64,000 bases of DNA, from contig JAFUCJ010000008.1 in the NCBI GenBank assembly GCA_017459705.1, positions 1-64,000 of the forward strand. Direction: 5' to 3'. Below, piece by piece: positions 9,322 through 61,617 of the stretch. Numbering within the stretch: position 1 is the first letter of the stretch; every line of letters starts with the position of its first letter. The notes beneath the pieces are model-generated. The model saw only the letters and a list, made by a program, of their open reading frames with translations. It ran no database searches and was not told the origin of the DNA. A program made the position numbers and the translations under genes. The stretch is from Candidatus Saccharimonadota bacterium (GTDB lineage Bacteria > Patescibacteriota > Saccharimonadia > Saccharimonadales > Saccharimonadaceae).

Positions 9322-11118
9322 ATGCCTCGCATTAGGATACTAAAATACATTACCCTCGGCCTGCTCGGCATTATTGCCGTGCGGCTGTTTTTTATCCAAA
9401 TCATCGAGCACGACGCTTGGGTGGCAAAGGCGAGCGAGCAGCACACTATGCTCGAAACCATCACGGCGAAGCGCGGCGAGATTTACATGATGGATCATGG
9501 CGAGCCGGTGGCGGTGGTCATGAACCAGACCACCTACCAGGTCATCATCGATCCGGCCATCACCCCTCGCGACAAGCTTCAATCCACCCTTGACAAATAC
9601 GCAAAAGATTATATAACTGCAAACCTTGATGAAGTTTATGCTATCGAGGGGCTTCGTTACTACGTTGTCGCCAAAAACGTCCCGTATTCCGCCGCCACCA
9701 AAATCGCTGCCGAGGGGCTTAGTAGTGTCTGGTTGAAAGAAGGCAACAGTCGTGTTTACCCCGAAGGCGAAATGGCCTCCACGGTTCTCGGTTTTGTCAA
9801 TGCCGACGGTCTCGGGCAGTACGGCGTCGAAGGCTCGCTTAATCACATCCTGACCGGCAAAGATGGGCTACTCAGAACCATCTCCGACGTCAACAACGTC
9901 GCTCTCTCTATCGGCGACGACAACGTCAAGATTCCCGCCGAGGATGGACAGAGCGTTGTCTTATCTATTGACCGCGGCCTCGAAAAAGGCACCGAGGAAC
10001 GCATCGCCGCCGCTCTTGAACATAGCGAGGCTACCAACGCGGCAGTTCTCATCATGAATCCAAATACCGGCGAAGTCGTCGCGATGACCGCCTTGCCAAA
10101 TTACGACCCTGCCCACTACGGCAACGTCAAAGACGCCTCGGCCTATATCAATCAAGTCACCGAGGTTCCATACGAACCTGCCTCGATTTGCAAAAACTTC
10201 GCCTACTCCGCCGCTATCAACGAGGGTAAAATGACTCCCGACACCACCTATTTCAACGAACATTACGTCTATGTCGACGGGTGGAAAATCGACAACGCCC
10301 AGATGAATAGTTTTCTCTACGGCGAAATCGACATGCGTACGGCGCTCTACTGGTCACTCAACTCTGGCTCGATTCAGGCGTTAAAGTTTCTTGGCGACGA
10401 CCCAGCAAGTATCAATCAAAAGGGGAGGGAATTACTTTTCGACTATTATTACAATAAGTTCCAGTTAGGACACAACACAGGTATCGAGCTCATCGAAGCT
10501 GAGGGCTTCATACCCGACCCCAACGAGGGCTGGGGTCGCGACTCAACCTATGCCAACATGACTTTCGGGCAAAATCTCGGTATCACTATGATTCAGACCG
10601 CACGGGCTTTCTCCGCAGTAGTCAACGGCGGCTACCTTTATACCCCCACGGTCGTGAAAGGTGTCTTAAAGGACGGCGAAATCGTCGCATTGGATACTGC
10701 ACCGACGGGTGACGCCGCTTGGGGGACCCCCACGTCAGCGCGAGTGGGGGAAGATGCGGCGGCAGGACCCGTCGGCGAGCGTATCTTGACTGAGCAGACT
10801 TCCGCCACTATGCGTTCTATGCTCATCAATAACCGCGATTATAAGGTTCGCGCCGGTATCGACCGTTTTGGCTATGCCGTCGGCGGCAAATCTGGTACCG
10901 CTCAGGTCGTGAGAGGTGGCGCCTACGACGATACTTTTGCGGAGTTAGTCGGTTCTTACATGGGCTTCGTCGGTCCTGCCGGTGAATTGCCGCGCTATGT
11001 TGTCATGGTCAAGATGTGGGGCGAAGGCAAAAGCGTCGGCTCTGGCGACGCCATGGATCTCTTCGATTCATTGCAAAATTATCTCATCGACTACTACAAG
11101 ATTAAACCCAATCTATGA
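9322..11118 (+). CDS. ftsI: Penicillin-binding protein FtsI (septal transpeptidase)
   Basis: 598 aa class B PBP. One N-terminal membrane helix (about residues 8-25) is followed by the dimerisation domain and a transpeptidase domain with Ser288 in SICK (SxxK), S345-L-N (SxN) and K523-S-G (KTG-type). It cross-links septal murein and works with FtsW encoded downstream. TATAAT (9309-9314) ends 7 bases before the ATG, so the mRNA should be leaderless. Residues about 461-485 (GDAAWGTPTSARVGEDAAAG) are encoded by a 74-bp palindromic repeat that also occurs twice in topA. It lies on a surface segment ahead of the KSG motif. Confidence 0.96.
   Translation: MPRIRILKYITLGLLGIIAVRLFFIQIIEHDAWVAKASEQHTMLETITAKRGEIYMMDHGEPVAVVMNQTTYQVIIDPAITPRDKLQSTLDKYAKDYITANLDEVYAIEGLRYYVVAKNVPYSAATKIAAEGLSSVWLKEGNSRVYPEGEMASTVLGFVNADGLGQYGVEGSLNHILTGKDGLLRTISDVNNVALSIGDDNVKIPAEDGQSVVLSIDRGLEKGTEERIAAALEHSEATNAAVLIMNPNTGEVVAMTALPNYDPAHYGNVKDASAYINQVTEVPYEPASICKNFAYSAAINEGKMTPDTTYFNEHYVYVDGWKIDNAQMNSFLYGEIDMRTALYWSLNSGSIQALKFLGDDPASINQKGRELLFDYYYNKFQLGHNTGIELIEAEGFIPDPNEGWGRDSTYANMTFGQNLGITMIQTARAFSAVVNGGYLYTPTVVKGVLKDGEIVALDTAPTGDAAWGTPTSARVGEDAAAGPVGERILTEQTSATMRSMLINNRDYKVRAGIDRFGYAVGGKSGTAQVVRGGAYDDTFAELVGSYMGFVGPAGELPRYVVMVKMWGEGKSVGSGDAMDLFDSLQNYLIDYYKIKPNL
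10702..10775. repeat. 74-bp palindromic element, copy 1 (inside ftsI)
   Basis: The outer arms CCGACGGGT and ACCCGTCGG are exactly complementary. Inside are GCCGC/GCGGC and CCCCCAC/GTGGGGG. The same element lies at 55836-55909 and 56796-56869 in topA. Relative to the topA copies, paired positions change together (C-G to T-A, A-T to G-C, C-G to T-A), so the fold is maintained. It is in frame and translated. Confidence 0.85.
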
Positions 11119-48224: not shown

Positions 48225-49129
48225 TATATCTCCAATGTTATTGAGATTGGACAATGGTCCGACCCGGTTACATTTTCATAAATCTCAGCATCCAGTAGTT
48301 TGCTCTCGAGCGCACCAGAAACGAAGAAATAATCAATCCGCCACCCTACGTTGTTTTCGCGCGCCTTACCCCAATGACTCCACCAGGTGTACCTCTGTGA
48401 ATCTGGATGTAATTCGCGAAAAGTATCCATGAAATCAGCGCCTATGATTTTCCCGACGCCCTCACGCTCCTCGTCGGTAAAACCGGCGTTGTGGTGGTTG
48501 GTTTTTGGTCGTGCGAGATCTATCTCCGTGTGGGCCGCATTGAAATCTCCGCACACTACCACTGGCTTTGTCCTTTCAAGCTCTTTTAGTAGTTGCAAAA
48601 ACTCCGGGTCCCAACTCTCGTGGCGAAGCTTAAGCCTAGATAAATCCGGCTTCGAATTTGGCGTATAGACGTTCACTAGAAAGAATTTGTCGAATTCCAT
48701 CGCCAAGATTCGCCCTTCTGATGCGCCTATGTCGCCCAAGGAATCGCTACCATTGTTTTTCGAAGCATGTATGTTTTGATTTGCGAGTCCAAAAATGTAT
48801 ATTCCTGACGACCCCGACAGGTTCGCCTCGTCAGAGGCGGTTCTGCCGGCGGTCCAGCGTATGACATTTTTGGCGAGCAAGTCAGCTGAGAAAAGCAATG
48901 GTAGCGATTCTTCGCGTAACAGCGTAGCAGTACCGCTATACCCGGCCCTCTTTGCTGGATTCCACGCAACTTTATACCCCGGAAAATCATACTCGACTTG
49001 TTCTGGCTTGGCCTTAATCTCCTGCAAGCACAAAATATCCGGCTGATATTCATTGAGAAACTTCTGCAATGCTCCTTTACGCAAAACCGCCCTCACCCCG
49101 TTGACATTCCAAGAGAAAATCCTAAGCAT
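48224..49129 (-). CDS. xth: Exodeoxyribonuclease III / AP endonuclease with palindromic insertion
   Basis: 301 aa from the ATG at 49129 (GGGG-rich ribosome site; overlaps smpB by 8 bases). It cleaves DNA 5' of abasic sites. Signatures: WNVNGVRA, CLQEIKA (metal Glu), NVYTPN, GDFNAAHTEID, WRIDYFF and GSDHCPI. Residues about 74-130 (between REESLPLLFSADL and ASEGRILAMEF) form an insertion absent from typical XthA and encoded by a 170-bp palindrome (48741-48910). The catalytic residues lie outside it, so the enzyme should work. Confidence 0.93.
   Translation of the reverse strand: MLRIFSWNVNGVRAVLRKGALQKFLNEYQPDILCLQEIKAKPEQVEYDFPGYKVAWNPAKRAGYSGTATLLREESLPLLFSADLLAKNVIRWTAGRTASDEANLSGSSGIYIFGLANQNIHASKNNGSDSLGDIGASEGRILAMEFDKFFLVNVYTPNSKPDLSRLKLRHESWDPEFLQLLKELERTKPVVVCGDFNAAHTEIDLARPKTNHHNAGFTDEEREGVGKIIGADFMDTFRELHPDSQRYTWWSHWGKARENNVGWRIDYFFVSGALESKLLDAEIYENVTGSDHCPISITLEI
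48741..48910. repeat. 170-bp palindrome inserted in frame in xth
   Basis: GAATCGCTACCATTG (48741-48755) pairs exactly with CAATGGTAGCGATTC (48896-48910). AAAAATGT near 48791 pairs with ACATTTTT near 48864, and CGCCTC/GAGGCG forms a hairpin at the centre (48824-48839). It encodes about 57 residues of xth. It differs in sequence from the 74-bp element of ftsI and topA. Confidence 0.75.
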
Positions 49130-54907: not shown

Positions 54908-57460
54908 CTATTTCTGGGCGCTAGACTTTTTGGTGGTCGTAGCTTTCTTGCTACTTCCCTTGGCGACACTCGCCTTTTTCGCGGTACTAGTAGCTTTGCC
55001 ACGTCCGCCCCGTACTCTTCGCCGCGTTTTGGCGGCAGTTTTTGGCTTGTTTTCGAGCATTTCGCGCGCCTGCGCCTCGGTGATGGTCTTCGGATCTAGA
55101 TCCTTGGGTACTTTTACGTTATTGCGTCGCCCCGGCCCTTTGACATACGGACCGTACGCACCATTAATAATTTGTATCTCACCCCAGTCGGCAATCATCG
55201 AGTCAATCTTTCTCTGATATAGGGGCAACACGTCTTCCAGCGTCACGGTGTACGGGTCGAAATCTTTCATTGGAATATTATACTTGCCGCCTTTCAGGTA
55301 TGGCCCGAAAGGTCCATTGGCCGCAATCAACTCGGTCCCATCTGCCGCTTTCCCGAGCGTTCGCGGTAAAGCCGGCAGGGCTAATTGTTTTAGTGCGTGC
55401 TCTAGCGTAACCGTCTTGACTGATTTTCGCTTCGGTAGCGGTGCGAAACGTGGCTTCTCGCCGCATTCTTTTTCGTTATCGCCGAGCTGGATGAAGCCGC
55501 CATTTTTGCCCACTTTGGCATAGATTGGCTTCCCTGTCTCAGGATCATGCCCGAGGAGCCGCGCATTGTTATATCGCTCGACGCCATTAGCCATCAGTAC
55601 CGTATCGTGGAATGGTCCATAGAAATCTCTCAGCATCTTGACACGTTCCAACTTTGCGTCGGCCACTAGGTCGAGGTCCTTCTCGATATTCGCGGTAAAC
55701 TTATAGTCGACAATGTTCTTAAAATTATCCGTGAGAAACCCCGCGACTAACTCGCCAATCGGCGTTGGTATGAGTTTGCCCTTATTAGCGCCATGCTTCT
55801 CCTTGACGACGCTGCGAGTAATGGTAGTGGTCGCATCGGCGGGTGACGTCGCTTGGGGGACCCCCGCGCCCGCGTGCGTGGGGGAAGATGCGACGGCAGG
55901 ACCCGCCGAGGCTAAGATTGGCTCGACACTTAGTTCTACCACTTCGCGCTCTTCCCCCTCGCTCTCGCCCTTGACGACATACCCGCGCGCCTGGATCGCC
56001 GACATAATCGAGGCATAAGTAGACGGTCGCCCGATGCCGAGTTCTTCCAGTTTTTTTACCAACGAACCCTCGGTATATCTTGCCGGTGGCTTTGCGAAGT
56101 TCTGCCGTGCCGTCAAACTAAGGTAGTCTAGCGGGTCACCCTTCGCGACTTTCGGCAACTGTAAATCTTTCGAGTTGCCATATACTTTTAGAAAACCGTC
56201 AAATATCACCACTTCGCCTTTCGCGACGAATGTGTCGGCAGATTCTGTCGGTTCATGAACCGCGCCGATACGAATCGTGGTTTTTGCGACTCTGGCATTT
56301 GCCATCTGTGTTGCCACTGTGCGTGCCCAAATCAACTGGTACAACCGCTTCTCATAATCATTTTTTCCGGCCACCATGCGTCGCACGTCAGTCGGGCGAA
56401 TCGCCTCGTGAGCTTCCTGCGCCGAGGCATCTTTCGTCTTGAAATGGCGTGTTTTCAGATATTCGTCACCAAATTCGCTCTTGATGAACCCCGCAATTGC
56501 CCCTATCGCCTGCGAAGATAGGTTGAGCGAGTCGGTACGGTGATAGGTGATCAGACCAGCCTGATACAACCCCTGCGCCGCGCTCATCGTCGTCCGCGAC
56601 GAGAAACCGAGTTTCGCATTGGCTTCAATCTGCAACGCCGCCGTCGTGAAAGGCACCGGATTAGACTTCGTCCCCTCAGCCTCCTCCACTTCCGTCACCA
56701 CAAACTCCGCCCCCGCCAATCTTTCTAGTAAAGTTTTGGCCGCCTGCTCGTCTTGGGGGGCTTCGCCATCGTAGGCGGCCGAGAATTTGCATTCATCGGC
56801 GGGTGACGTCGCTTGGGGGACCCCCGCGCCCGCGTGCGTGGGGGAAGATGCGACGGCAGGACCCGCCGAGGAAATAGATTTTGCGGCAAACATCCCAGTC
56901 ACCTTAAAAGACGATTTGCTTTCAAATTTCTCGATATCCTTCTCTCGCTCTACTACTAGCCGGAGCGCCGGACTCTGCACACGTCCCGCGCTAATCGCCC
57001 CTGGCACCTTGCGCCTCACTATATCCGACAAATCATACCCCACTAGCATATCTAGTGTCTGCCTTGCCTGCTGGCTCGACACCATATTCATATCCACCGT
57101 GCGAGGATTTTTGATGGCGTTTTCTAGTGCTGGTTTTGTAATCTCGTGAAAAGTAATCCGCGCGGTGTCTTTCGGTAGCTTCAATACTTCCGTGAGGTGC
57201 CAAGATATCGATTCGCCCTCGCGATCCTCATCGGTTGCGAGCCATACGCGCTCCGCCGCCTTAGCTTCCTTTTTTAGTTCCGCAATAATCTGCTTGTGGC
57301 CCGGGTCTATCTCATAAGTCACATCGAAAGTCGACTTATCTACTTTGGTATCTTTCCGGATGTGCCCTACGCTCGCTAGCACCTTGAAATCACTTCCGAG
57401 GTACTTCTCTATCGTATGTGCCTTTGCGGGGCTCTCCACAATCACTAGATTTTTAGACAT
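54908..57460 (-). CDS. topA: DNA topoisomerase I with two palindromic insertions
   Basis: 850 aa. It relaxes negative supercoils. TOPRIM domain (VIVESPAKAHTIEKYLG, LATDEDREGESI), active-site Tyr in LITYHRTDSL (about residue 310), then C-terminal repeats of the Topo_C type (GPYLKGGKYNIP, GPYVKGPGRRNNV) and a Lys/Ala-rich tail instead of zinc fingers. Two stretches, residues about 197-222 and 517-542, are the same 24-residue peptide (SAGPAVASSPTHAGAG..) encoded by identical 78-bp palindromic repeats. Both lie in loops outside the active site. Confidence 0.95.
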   Translation of the reverse strand: MSKNLVIVESPAKAHTIEKYLGSDFKVLASVGHIRKDTKVDKSTFDVTYEIDPGHKQIIAELKKEAKAAERVWLATDEDREGESISWHLTEVLKLPKDTARITFHEITKPALENAIKNPRTVDMNMVSSQQARQTLDMLVGYDLSDIVRRKVPGAISAGRVQSPALRLVVEREKDIEKFESKSSFKVTGMFAAKSISSAGPAVASSPTHAGAGVPQATSPADECKFSAAYDGEAPQDEQAAKTLLERLAGAEFVVTEVEEAEGTKSNPVPFTTAALQIEANAKLGFSSRTTMSAAQGLYQAGLITYHRTDSLNLSSQAIGAIAGFIKSEFGDEYLKTRHFKTKDASAQEAHEAIRPTDVRRMVAGKNDYEKRLYQLIWARTVATQMANARVAKTTIRIGAVHEPTESADTFVAKGEVVIFDGFLKVYGNSKDLQLPKVAKGDPLDYLSLTARQNFAKPPARYTEGSLVKKLEELGIGRPSTYASIMSAIQARGYVVKGESEGEEREVVELSVEPILASAGPAVASSPTHAGAGVPQATSPADATTTITRSVVKEKHGANKGKLIPTPIGELVAGFLTDNFKNIVDYKFTANIEKDLDLVADAKLERVKMLRDFYGPFHDTVLMANGVERYNNARLLGHDPETGKPIYAKVGKNGGFIQLGDNEKECGEKPRFAPLPKRKSVKTVTLEHALKQLALPALPRTLGKAADGTELIAANGPFGPYLKGGKYNIPMKDFDPYTVTLEDVLPLYQRKIDSMIADWGEIQIINGAYGPYVKGPGRRNNVKVPKDLDPKTITEAQAREMLENKPKTAAKTRRRVRGGRGKATSTAKKASVAKGSSKKATTTKKSSAQK
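55834..55911. repeat. Palindromic element, copy 2 (inside topA)
   Basis: 78 bases identical to 56794-56871; the palindromic core is 55836-55909, with arms TCGGCGGGT and ACCCGCCGA. Nested GTCGC/GCGAC and CCCCCGCGC/GCGTGGGGG-type pairings. In frame, on the strand opposite to the ftsI reading. Confidence 0.9.
56794..56871. repeat. Palindromic element, copy 3 (inside topA)
   Basis: Identical over 78 bases to 55834-55911, core 56796-56869. Identity implies a recent duplication or gene conversion within topA. A 78-base unit is 26 codons, so insertion keeps the reading frame. Confidence 0.9.
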
Positions 57461-59617: not shown

Positions 59618-60637
59618 TCACACATGTCGGTATTTTTTGCGGAGATTCTCAACGATTTTCGTGATTTGATACTTTGCTGGTCGGAGTACTAGGTCGTGTG
59701 CTGGGATATAGCGCAATTCTTCACAGCCAAATGACCGCTTGAACTCGCTCACCCCATAAAATCGGTGTGATGTCTCCTCGCGCCCTACGATTCCCCATAG
59801 GTTATACCGAACGCAACCTCGCCTCCTGGCTTCGTCCATCGCCGCGAGATGAAGTAATGGCGCGGCGGAGTACTTGGTACCGAGTTCCGAAGATACACCG
59901 TAATGATAGCTCGCCTCAGCCCCATAGAAAATCATAAAGTTCTGCGCCAAAGTCTCGCCCTCGTATTTCGCGGTGTATATCAGCACCTCTCCGCCTTTGC
60001 GAAACGCTTCAAACTGTTTCCGCAGGAACGCATCGGAGAACGCTATATATTCTTGACGCTTGGCGTGCAATTTTTCCAATCGACAAAACTCGCGAATCGC
60101 TTCATCGTCATCCGAAACGTCTACTTCGATGTCTAGTTTTTCGGCTTTGCGCAATTTCCTCCGAAATCTTTGCGACGCACCCGCCAAGATCTCATCTCGT
60201 GACCGCGTAAGGTCGAGAATGCCCGCATACTCCACGGACAGATACATTGGCGCCGGTATTAGGCCGAGTTTTTGCATTGTGGCGAGGCTATGATCGTTCA
60301 GCGGCTCCTGTGGTCGCACTCTGACGAACACGCACTGATGGCGCTCCCCAGCCTTCTTGATGTCGGCAAAAATCTCCGTGAGTAGCTTCTGGTCTCCGTA
60401 ATCACAGAGCGGTCCACCGGCGATAGCGAGGTAAGTGCCACGTTTCGCGGTTTCTACCACTCCGGCGTATGCCCCCACGATTTGTCCGTCGCGTCGTACT
60501 AGTCGCCTTACGATTTGTTTACCGCGCGCCGCATGAAACTCGTAAAAATCCCATGATTGTAGAAAATTCGCCTCGGGCCGCGCCGCTACGAACCCGTCCC
60601 ATTCCTCGCGCGATCTTCCGTCGTCGATACGAATCAT
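59618..60637 (-). CDS. FemAB-type aminoacyltransferase 1
   Basis: 339 aa with tandem GNAT-like folds. FemX/A/B proteins add amino acids from aminoacyl-tRNA to the lipid II peptide, building cross-bridges. Typical segments: ANFLQSWDFYEFHAARGKQI, YLAIAGGPLCDYGD, CVFVRVRPQEPL, RSRDEILAGASQRFRRKLRKAEK, and LHLAAMDEARRRGCVRYNLWGI near the end. It overlaps the next FemAB gene by 4 bases. Confidence 0.9.
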   Translation of the reverse strand: MIRIDDGRSREEWDGFVAARPEANFLQSWDFYEFHAARGKQIVRRLVRRDGQIVGAYAGVVETAKRGTYLAIAGGPLCDYGDQKLLTEIFADIKKAGERHQCVFVRVRPQEPLNDHSLATMQKLGLIPAPMYLSVEYAGILDLTRSRDEILAGASQRFRRKLRKAEKLDIEVDVSDDDEAIREFCRLEKLHAKRQEYIAFSDAFLRKQFEAFRKGGEVLIYTAKYEGETLAQNFMIFYGAEASYHYGVSSELGTKYSAAPLLHLAAMDEARRRGCVRYNLWGIVGREETSHRFYGVSEFKRSFGCEELRYIPAHDLVLRPAKYQITKIVENLRKKYRHV

Positions 60638-61617
60638 AGATGCCTCCTTTTTCTCCTTGCGGCTTCCACCACGAAATCTTTCAGATATCCCATTCGCGAC
60701 AATACTAAATCATGCGCTGGAACGAACTCCACCACTTCGCCACCGAACCCGGTCTTAAACGTCGTCACTCCGGCGTAGCGGTGGTCAGGTTGCCTAGGTG
60801 GCGCAATCCCCCACAGATTAAATCGCTCAACCCCAGCCTTTTTCAGGTCCTGTATCACCCTCCATAATAAAGCATACGCCCCTGGCAATTTACGGTTCAA
60901 ATCTGTCGATGCCGCCTCGTAGTAATCGCCCTCACGTCCACCCCTGATGATGAGTCCGTAGGCGACCGGCGCCCGCTCTGGTGTCAATACTTTGTAGATC
61001 CAGATATTCCCTCGGAACGCTTCGCGCTCGGCCATCAGGACTTTCTCGGACGGCGGTACAAATCCTTGTCGCCTCGCTGTCGCCACCTGAGCTGCATGAA
61101 ACTCCTTAAAATCCGCCTCGCTGTCACCTTTTGTTACATAAAGCCCCAGTTTTTCGGCTCGTCGCACTTCGTAACGCGTCTGCCGACGCATATCCGCGAG
61201 TAGTTCGTCCTCTGACCGCGTCAAATCGAGCATAACCGTATGTTCTGCCGCAAGGTGCATAGGAGCCACCTTTAATCCTAAACGCCTGAGAAGTGCCAAA
61301 TTTGCTTCCTCCGCGCGAAGTTGTGGCCGCACCCTTACGAAAACGCACTTTTCGCGCCGCCCGGTCTCGGCTATTTTCGCAAAAATCTCCTGCACGTTGG
61401 CCTCATCCGTATAGTTGCAAAGCGGTCCGCAGGGGATTTCCAGATAACGACCACGTTTGGCATCTCGTACGACCATCAGCGCCCATCCCTTGCCACCGAA
61501 ATCATCAGTCACCACCTTGCATCCCAATATCTCGTTCATCTGGCCATACGCTGGCGACTGCAAAAAATTCGCTTCACTATACGCTTCTAGTATCTTTTTC
61601 CACTCCGTCTCGTTCAT
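60634..61617 (-). CDS. FemAB-type aminoacyltransferase 2
   Basis: 327 aa, a paralogue of the downstream FemAB (shared EANFLQSPAYGQMNE, YLEIPCGPLCNYTDE, CVFVRVRPQLRAEE, and RFNLWGIAPPRQPDHRYAGV). Two copies suggest two successive additions to the cross-bridge, as with FemA and FemB. It overlaps both neighbours by 4 bases, so the operon is tightly coupled. Confidence 0.9.
   Translation of the reverse strand: MNETEWKKILEAYSEANFLQSPAYGQMNEILGCKVVTDDFGGKGWALMVVRDAKRGRYLEIPCGPLCNYTDEANVQEIFAKIAETGRREKCVFVRVRPQLRAEEANLALLRRLGLKVAPMHLAAEHTVMLDLTRSEDELLADMRRQTRYEVRRAEKLGLYVTKGDSEADFKEFHAAQVATARRQGFVPPSEKVLMAEREAFRGNIWIYKVLTPERAPVAYGLIIRGGREGDYYEAASTDLNRKLPGAYALLWRVIQDLKKAGVERFNLWGIAPPRQPDHRYAGVTTFKTGFGGEVVEFVPAHDLVLSRMGYLKDFVVEAARRKRRHL

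Follow-up and report, generated by a model that had tools for sequence, protein, structure and literature searches.

A 74-bp palindrome lies in frame within the ftsI gene of a Candidatus Saccharimonadota bacterium (assembly GCA_017459705.1) and recurs twice within topA. The question is what this sequence is, and whether it forms part of the encoded proteins. The window is the first 64,000 nucleotides of contig JAFUCJ010000008.1. Within it, ftsI occupies positions 9322-11118 of the + strand and encodes 598 amino acids, and topA occupies 54908-57460 of the - strand and encodes 850. Pfam domains (transpeptidase and PBP dimer for FtsI; Topoisom_bac and Toprim for TopA) agree with the gene identities given in an earlier sequence-only reading. 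All three palindromes are located where that reading placed them, each as part of a 78-bp unit equal to 26 codons. Copy 1 (10700-10777, + strand) encodes approximately residues 460-485 of FtsI and is read on the + strand in the TGDAAWGTP... frame. Copy 2 (55834-55911, + strand) encodes approximately residues 517-542 of TopA in the SAGPAVASSP... frame. Copy 3 (56794-56871, + strand) has the same sequence as copy 2 and encodes approximately residues 197-222. As the reading had noted, the element strand relative to the gene is opposite in ftsI and topA, and the peptides, GDAAWGTPTSARVGEDAAAGP in FtsI and SAGPAVASSPTHAGAGVPQATSPA in TopA, are unrelated.

The two topA copies are identical at 78 of 78 bp; the identity ends abruptly at both boundaries, and the flanks are unrelated. 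Between the ftsI copy and this pair there are 12 differences. Six combine into three compensated base pairs of the outer helices (C-G to T-A, A-T to G-C, and C-G to T-A), five are in the apical region and are compensated only in part, and one is outside the palindrome. The claim that the differences occur at paired positions and preserve pairing is correct for the two outer helices and less so for the tip. The predicted folding of the copies is far below that of dinucleotide shuffles (z of -3.5 to -5.7; 0-1 of 200 shuffles folded equally well). The window contains other repeats. Two 69-nt direct repeats (60309-60377 and 61322-61390) are 72% identical and are found in neighboring - strand ORFs, which are possibly paralogous genes. 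Imperfect inverted repeats at 984-1177 and 48730-48921 have arms of 49 and 37 nt that are 78% complementary, and their sequence is unlike that of the hairpin element.

The 728-kb genome carries about 15 copies of the element. BLASTN against it returned 17 matches including fragments, 10 of which are full or near-full units. A covariance model, R1, built from a second subtype of the element, identified 14 copies. Additional hosts in this genome are obgE, xseA, mnmA, an rRNA pseudouridine synthase gene, ileS, murB, and a tsaE/tsaB fusion. R1 also found copies in 41 of 84 genomes of the same genus, with a maximum of 23 per genome. In a wider sample of the phylum, a second model, R2, matched 10 of 314 genera at E<=1e-5, the own genus included. 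Matches elsewhere in the phylum are rare, though some genomes have 2-5 copies; they share a GGGTGRC...GRCAGGACCC framework and the helices, and their tips differ. These counts are lower bounds due to strict filters, and the genomes sampled are species representatives that include many metagenome bins. The taxonomic spread of the element is wider than the sequence-only reading had inferred.

When named genomes were scanned with a DNA pattern, the matches listed were mostly to 'Candidatus Saccharibacteria', many of them from ruminant guts (goat, sheep, yak, buffalo, and roe-deer). Listed matches in Treponema, Streptomyces, Acidobacteria, and others were not significant by covariance model and are attributed to chance. 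Two pattern matches in viral contigs were likewise not backed by the covariance model, and no viral carrier was found. A search of Rfam 15 with the window and with the copy alone returned nothing at gathering score or with a significant E-value. Searches of the open-access literature turned up no account of such elements in Patescibacteria.

All copies share one fold composed of three stacked helices with a conserved AGG bulge and variable arms and tip, and the element is roughly 70-100 letters long across the family. In the + strand ftsI copy, the 5' arm of helix P1 (CCGACGGGT, 10702-10710) pairs with 10767-10775, as supported by pairing and covariation. The segment 10711-10718 follows, with a G-C pair (10711-10763), a conserved purine-purine mismatch (10712-10762), and the 5' arm of P2 (10713-10718, paired with 10756-10761). 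The conserved GGGGGACCCCC (10721-10731) is made up of invariant or nearly invariant columns, and its CCCCC (10727-10731) is the 5' arm of P3. The GGGGG at 10746-10750 is the 3' arm of P3. The remaining segment, 10756-10775, contains the 3' arm of P2, GGC, the AGG bulge (10764-10766), and the 3' arm of P1, including the conserved GGCAGGACCC. The family consensus is ACAT-NRRC-GGGTGAC-[P2]-GGGGGACCCCC-[tip]-GGGGGA-[P2']-GGCAGGACCC-GYYN-AGAG. P1 continues for five paired bases past GGGT and is followed by preferred unpaired flanks, while P3 begins with a near-invariant C5:G5 and ends in the variable tip. Three copies (L031, L205, and L208) form the apex of longer, imperfect inverted repeats.

Sequence varies in P2 and in the outer portion of P1, with pairing maintained. 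Cells in which both sides of a pair had changed numbered 127 in type B, compared with 44 in shuffles, and 69 compared with 21 in type A. This excess of about threefold is gone once partners are slid by one column. The junction of P1 and P2 is made up of a G-C pair, the purine-purine mismatch, a C-G pair, and the AGG bulge. At the mismatch, 148 copies have A.G, 17 have G.A, 4 have A.A, and 2 have G.G (Fisher p about 1e-17). Because the mismatch is kept and swapped as a unit, the data point to recognition of a folded molecule and not of palindromy alone. The recognized molecule leans weakly to DNA over RNA, given that G-U is infrequent at most of the variable pairs and that both orientations relative to the gene are used.

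The inserts were compared with homologous proteins in alignments of FtsI (29 congeners) and TopA (26 congeners). Most of these homologs have no insert at FtsI 460-485 or at TopA 197-222 and 517-542, and some have the same or other hairpin inserts at those sites. The sequence-only reading would have been refuted by the same peptides in relatives that lack the palindrome, and this was not observed among the aligned FtsI and TopA homologs. The precise insertion boundaries it had anticipated were not obtained. The ends are resolved only to a few residues, and the empty sites are between species and not within one. Around the insert segments, solved FtsI/PBP and TopA structures align poorly or with interruptions. 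In AlphaFold2 models, the inserts are predicted as coil with a pLDDT of about 27-33, between strands in TopA, and the adjoining parts of these domains mostly exceed 70. Values below 50 cover FtsI residues 459-483 and TopA residues 517-544 and 196-221. According to these models, the insert peptides sit in variable loops and are disordered.

Copies were counted as gene-borne on the basis of homology in the left and right flanks, each assessed on its own. This homology-defined frame test was adopted because a test based on ORFs is circular. Both flanks are in one frame in 71 of 74 gene-borne copies, where one third would be expected (binomial p about 3e-30). The p value overstates independence, as some copies are orthologous; among the three exceptions, L080 and L133 had only one another as the basis for the frame call. 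No stop is present in the used frame in 71 of 71 copies. All six frames are used, so the earlier claim that at least two are tolerated was an understatement. Two copies use the frame that would run into the conserved TGA, and each has TGG in its place. Bulky hydrophobic residues make up 13% of the used frames versus 20% of the open frames that these copies leave unused (p 5e-14). The core length is divisible by three in 50 of the 74 gene-borne copies versus 36 of 99 others (p 6e-5). In 21 in-frame copies it is not, which means that the frame must be restored by indels in the flanks or by imprecise ends. Together with the copy number in the own genome and the presence of the element in half of the sampled genus, these data support the proposal of a translated, in-frame repeat family analogous to that of Rickettsia.

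The frame, stop, and composition data are those of a translated insert that is kept in the protein. They are not expected if the element is removed from the message by intron-like splicing or skipped by the ribosome, in which case its sequence would be irrelevant to the protein. Bypass elements occur in some mitochondria, and a strong hairpin within housekeeping genes would suit either process. The 71 of 74 copies in frame, the absence of stops, the loss of TGA where it is read, the constrained composition, and the lack of an Rfam match make splicing or bypass hardly credible. Translation is itself inferred from this selection, without proteomics. The element could instead be a structured regulatory RNA that controls the stability or translation of the host mRNA, as its covariation and conserved internal loop would allow. 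Gene-borne copies are, however, found in both orientations relative to the gene (46 versus 28 of the 74). The host genes are also many and unrelated, and the element was undetected in about half of the congeners. A regulatory role is therefore very unlikely, and the 'regulatory' half of the earlier description, 'selfish or regulatory', is unsupported; the element is probably selfish.

Two further explanations concern how copies arise and how their arms are maintained. Palindromic, dispersed, single hairpins are also characteristic of REP/REPIN-type elements moved by a Y1 (RAYT) transposase. The Y1 family PF01797 was found in only 2 of 60 congeners searched (G024 and G065), both free of the element, and was not found in the own genome. 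The GTAG tag was not seen either, and a REP/REPIN identity can scarcely be upheld. Pairing could also be kept by local template switching, or quasipalindrome correction, and not by selection on the fold. There are few G-U intermediates in most of the variable pairs, three loci have partial tandem half-element copies (L006, L008, and L033), and two have deletion forms between GGGGGA repeats (L133 and L016). Template switching would, on the other hand, erase the A.G mismatch and the AGG bulge, both of which are kept phylum-wide, and it leaves the dispersed near-identical copies unexplained. It is unlikely to be the main explanation but may contribute to the evolution of the arms. The tandem halves and the GGGGGA deletions suggest that slippage also reshapes copies.

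The family is best described as short, non-autonomous, probably selfish mobile elements. The unit is a three-helix hairpin that is inferred to be recognized while folded, with the surviving copies filtered by frame and peptide. This reading is likely to be correct. It rests on the observed dispersal of near-identical copies with unrelated flanks, a single fold with compensatory change, in-frame insertion in genes, and an open used frame with few bulky hydrophobic residues; mobility itself is inferred and has not been observed. In the proposed mechanism, the unit would be copied and inserted in its folded state, either as single-stranded DNA at the replication fork, as an extruded cruciform, or through an RNA intermediate. 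The mobility enzyme would be supplied in trans. Insertions would land in either orientation and in any frame, and survivors would be those that keep the frame, lack stops, and add a flexible peptide to a surface loop. The element would then be translated as an inert, disordered linker.

No mobility enzyme has been identified. Reverse transcriptase (PF00078), as would be expected of an element driven by a group II intron or DGR, was not found in the element-rich genomes G004, G029, G033, G093, G103, and G105, which are draft assemblies. Y1 transposase and reverse transcriptase were both rejected as candidates, as their presence does not track the element.

Among known systems, the element is closest in kind to the Rickettsia palindromic elements (RPE), with no claim of homology. 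RPE are short palindromic repeats located in frame in genes that likely encode functional proteins (PMC3733652), and the Saccharibacteria element shares these features. It differs in phylum, in its three-helix fold, in the GGGTGRC and GRCAGGACCC motifs, in the swapping A.G mismatch, and in the use of all six frames shown here. Some RPE are CGTC-tagged REPs, a type without a dedicated transposase (PMC3733652), and the consensus of the present element differs from that description. In a 72-copy alignment, neither a GTAG nor a CGTC tag was found at the foot of a 5-13 bp stem; ACAT...AGAG flanks and GGGTGAC/GGCAGGACCC are present instead.

REP/REPIN elements with RAYT are similar in being dispersed, short, non-autonomous hairpins; here, gene-borne copies are common, and Y1 was not found in the element-bearing genomes searched. 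Like MITEs, the element is short, has inverted repeats, appears mobile, and lacks its own enzyme, but its internal fold is conserved through compensatory change. The BLASTN matches in the own genome are all short copies or fragments; no parent IS was found among them, and no target-site duplication was found in the absence of a close empty site. Mitochondrial coding palindromes of Nematomorpha are also translated inverted repeats inside genes. In these, both arms encode conserved protein (PMC6649704), whereas the Saccharibacteria insert is wholly absent from most homologs.

Other hairpin families are found in the same genus. F2 (core ATGTGTCCTANGGGACATGAAGACTTGGCCAGAGCGGCC...CACGC) is present in 24 of 84 congeners and was not found in the own genome. 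Its loci (L241, L242, L254, and L293-L322) have near-perfect arms, about 12-27 bp long, whose sequence changes from site to site. Insertion may have generated these arms by inverted copying of the target, and protein homology mostly left undecided which arm is native. A related short-core hairpin, F2b, is found in the first TopA loop at L249 and L252. In L249, the right arm encodes TFSAS and the left arm is its inverted copy; the TopA of L251 contains TFSAS as well and has a different insert at that loop. F3 is a third tip module (GGAGCGCGGCAGCGCGAG...GACGCG) found in L247, L251, L256, L263, and others. In L247 and L251, F3 is inside an outer stem of the type of the main family (F1), and F2-type tips are found in F1-type stems in L112, L114, and L318. 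Hairpin modules seem to be exchanged between families. F2 and F3 are found in the same TopA loops as the main family. It is possible, though doubtful at present, that the element is one family of a phylum-wide class of modular Patescibacteria hairpins that an undescribed enzyme moves in their folded state. If the F2 arms are inverted target copies, this would be a new mode of integration.

To our knowledge, mobile palindromes inside proteins are known mainly from Rickettsia. The same outcome is now observed in ultra-small Saccharibacteria, on a very different branch, in conserved housekeeping genes and in six frames. There are enough copies for a direct measurement of selection on frame, on stops, and on peptide composition. 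The family also offers a natural test of which loops of a protein tolerate about 26-30 foreign residues, and it is a warning for the annotation of these genomes. Finally, it provides a defined folded substrate for finding the unknown mobility enzyme.
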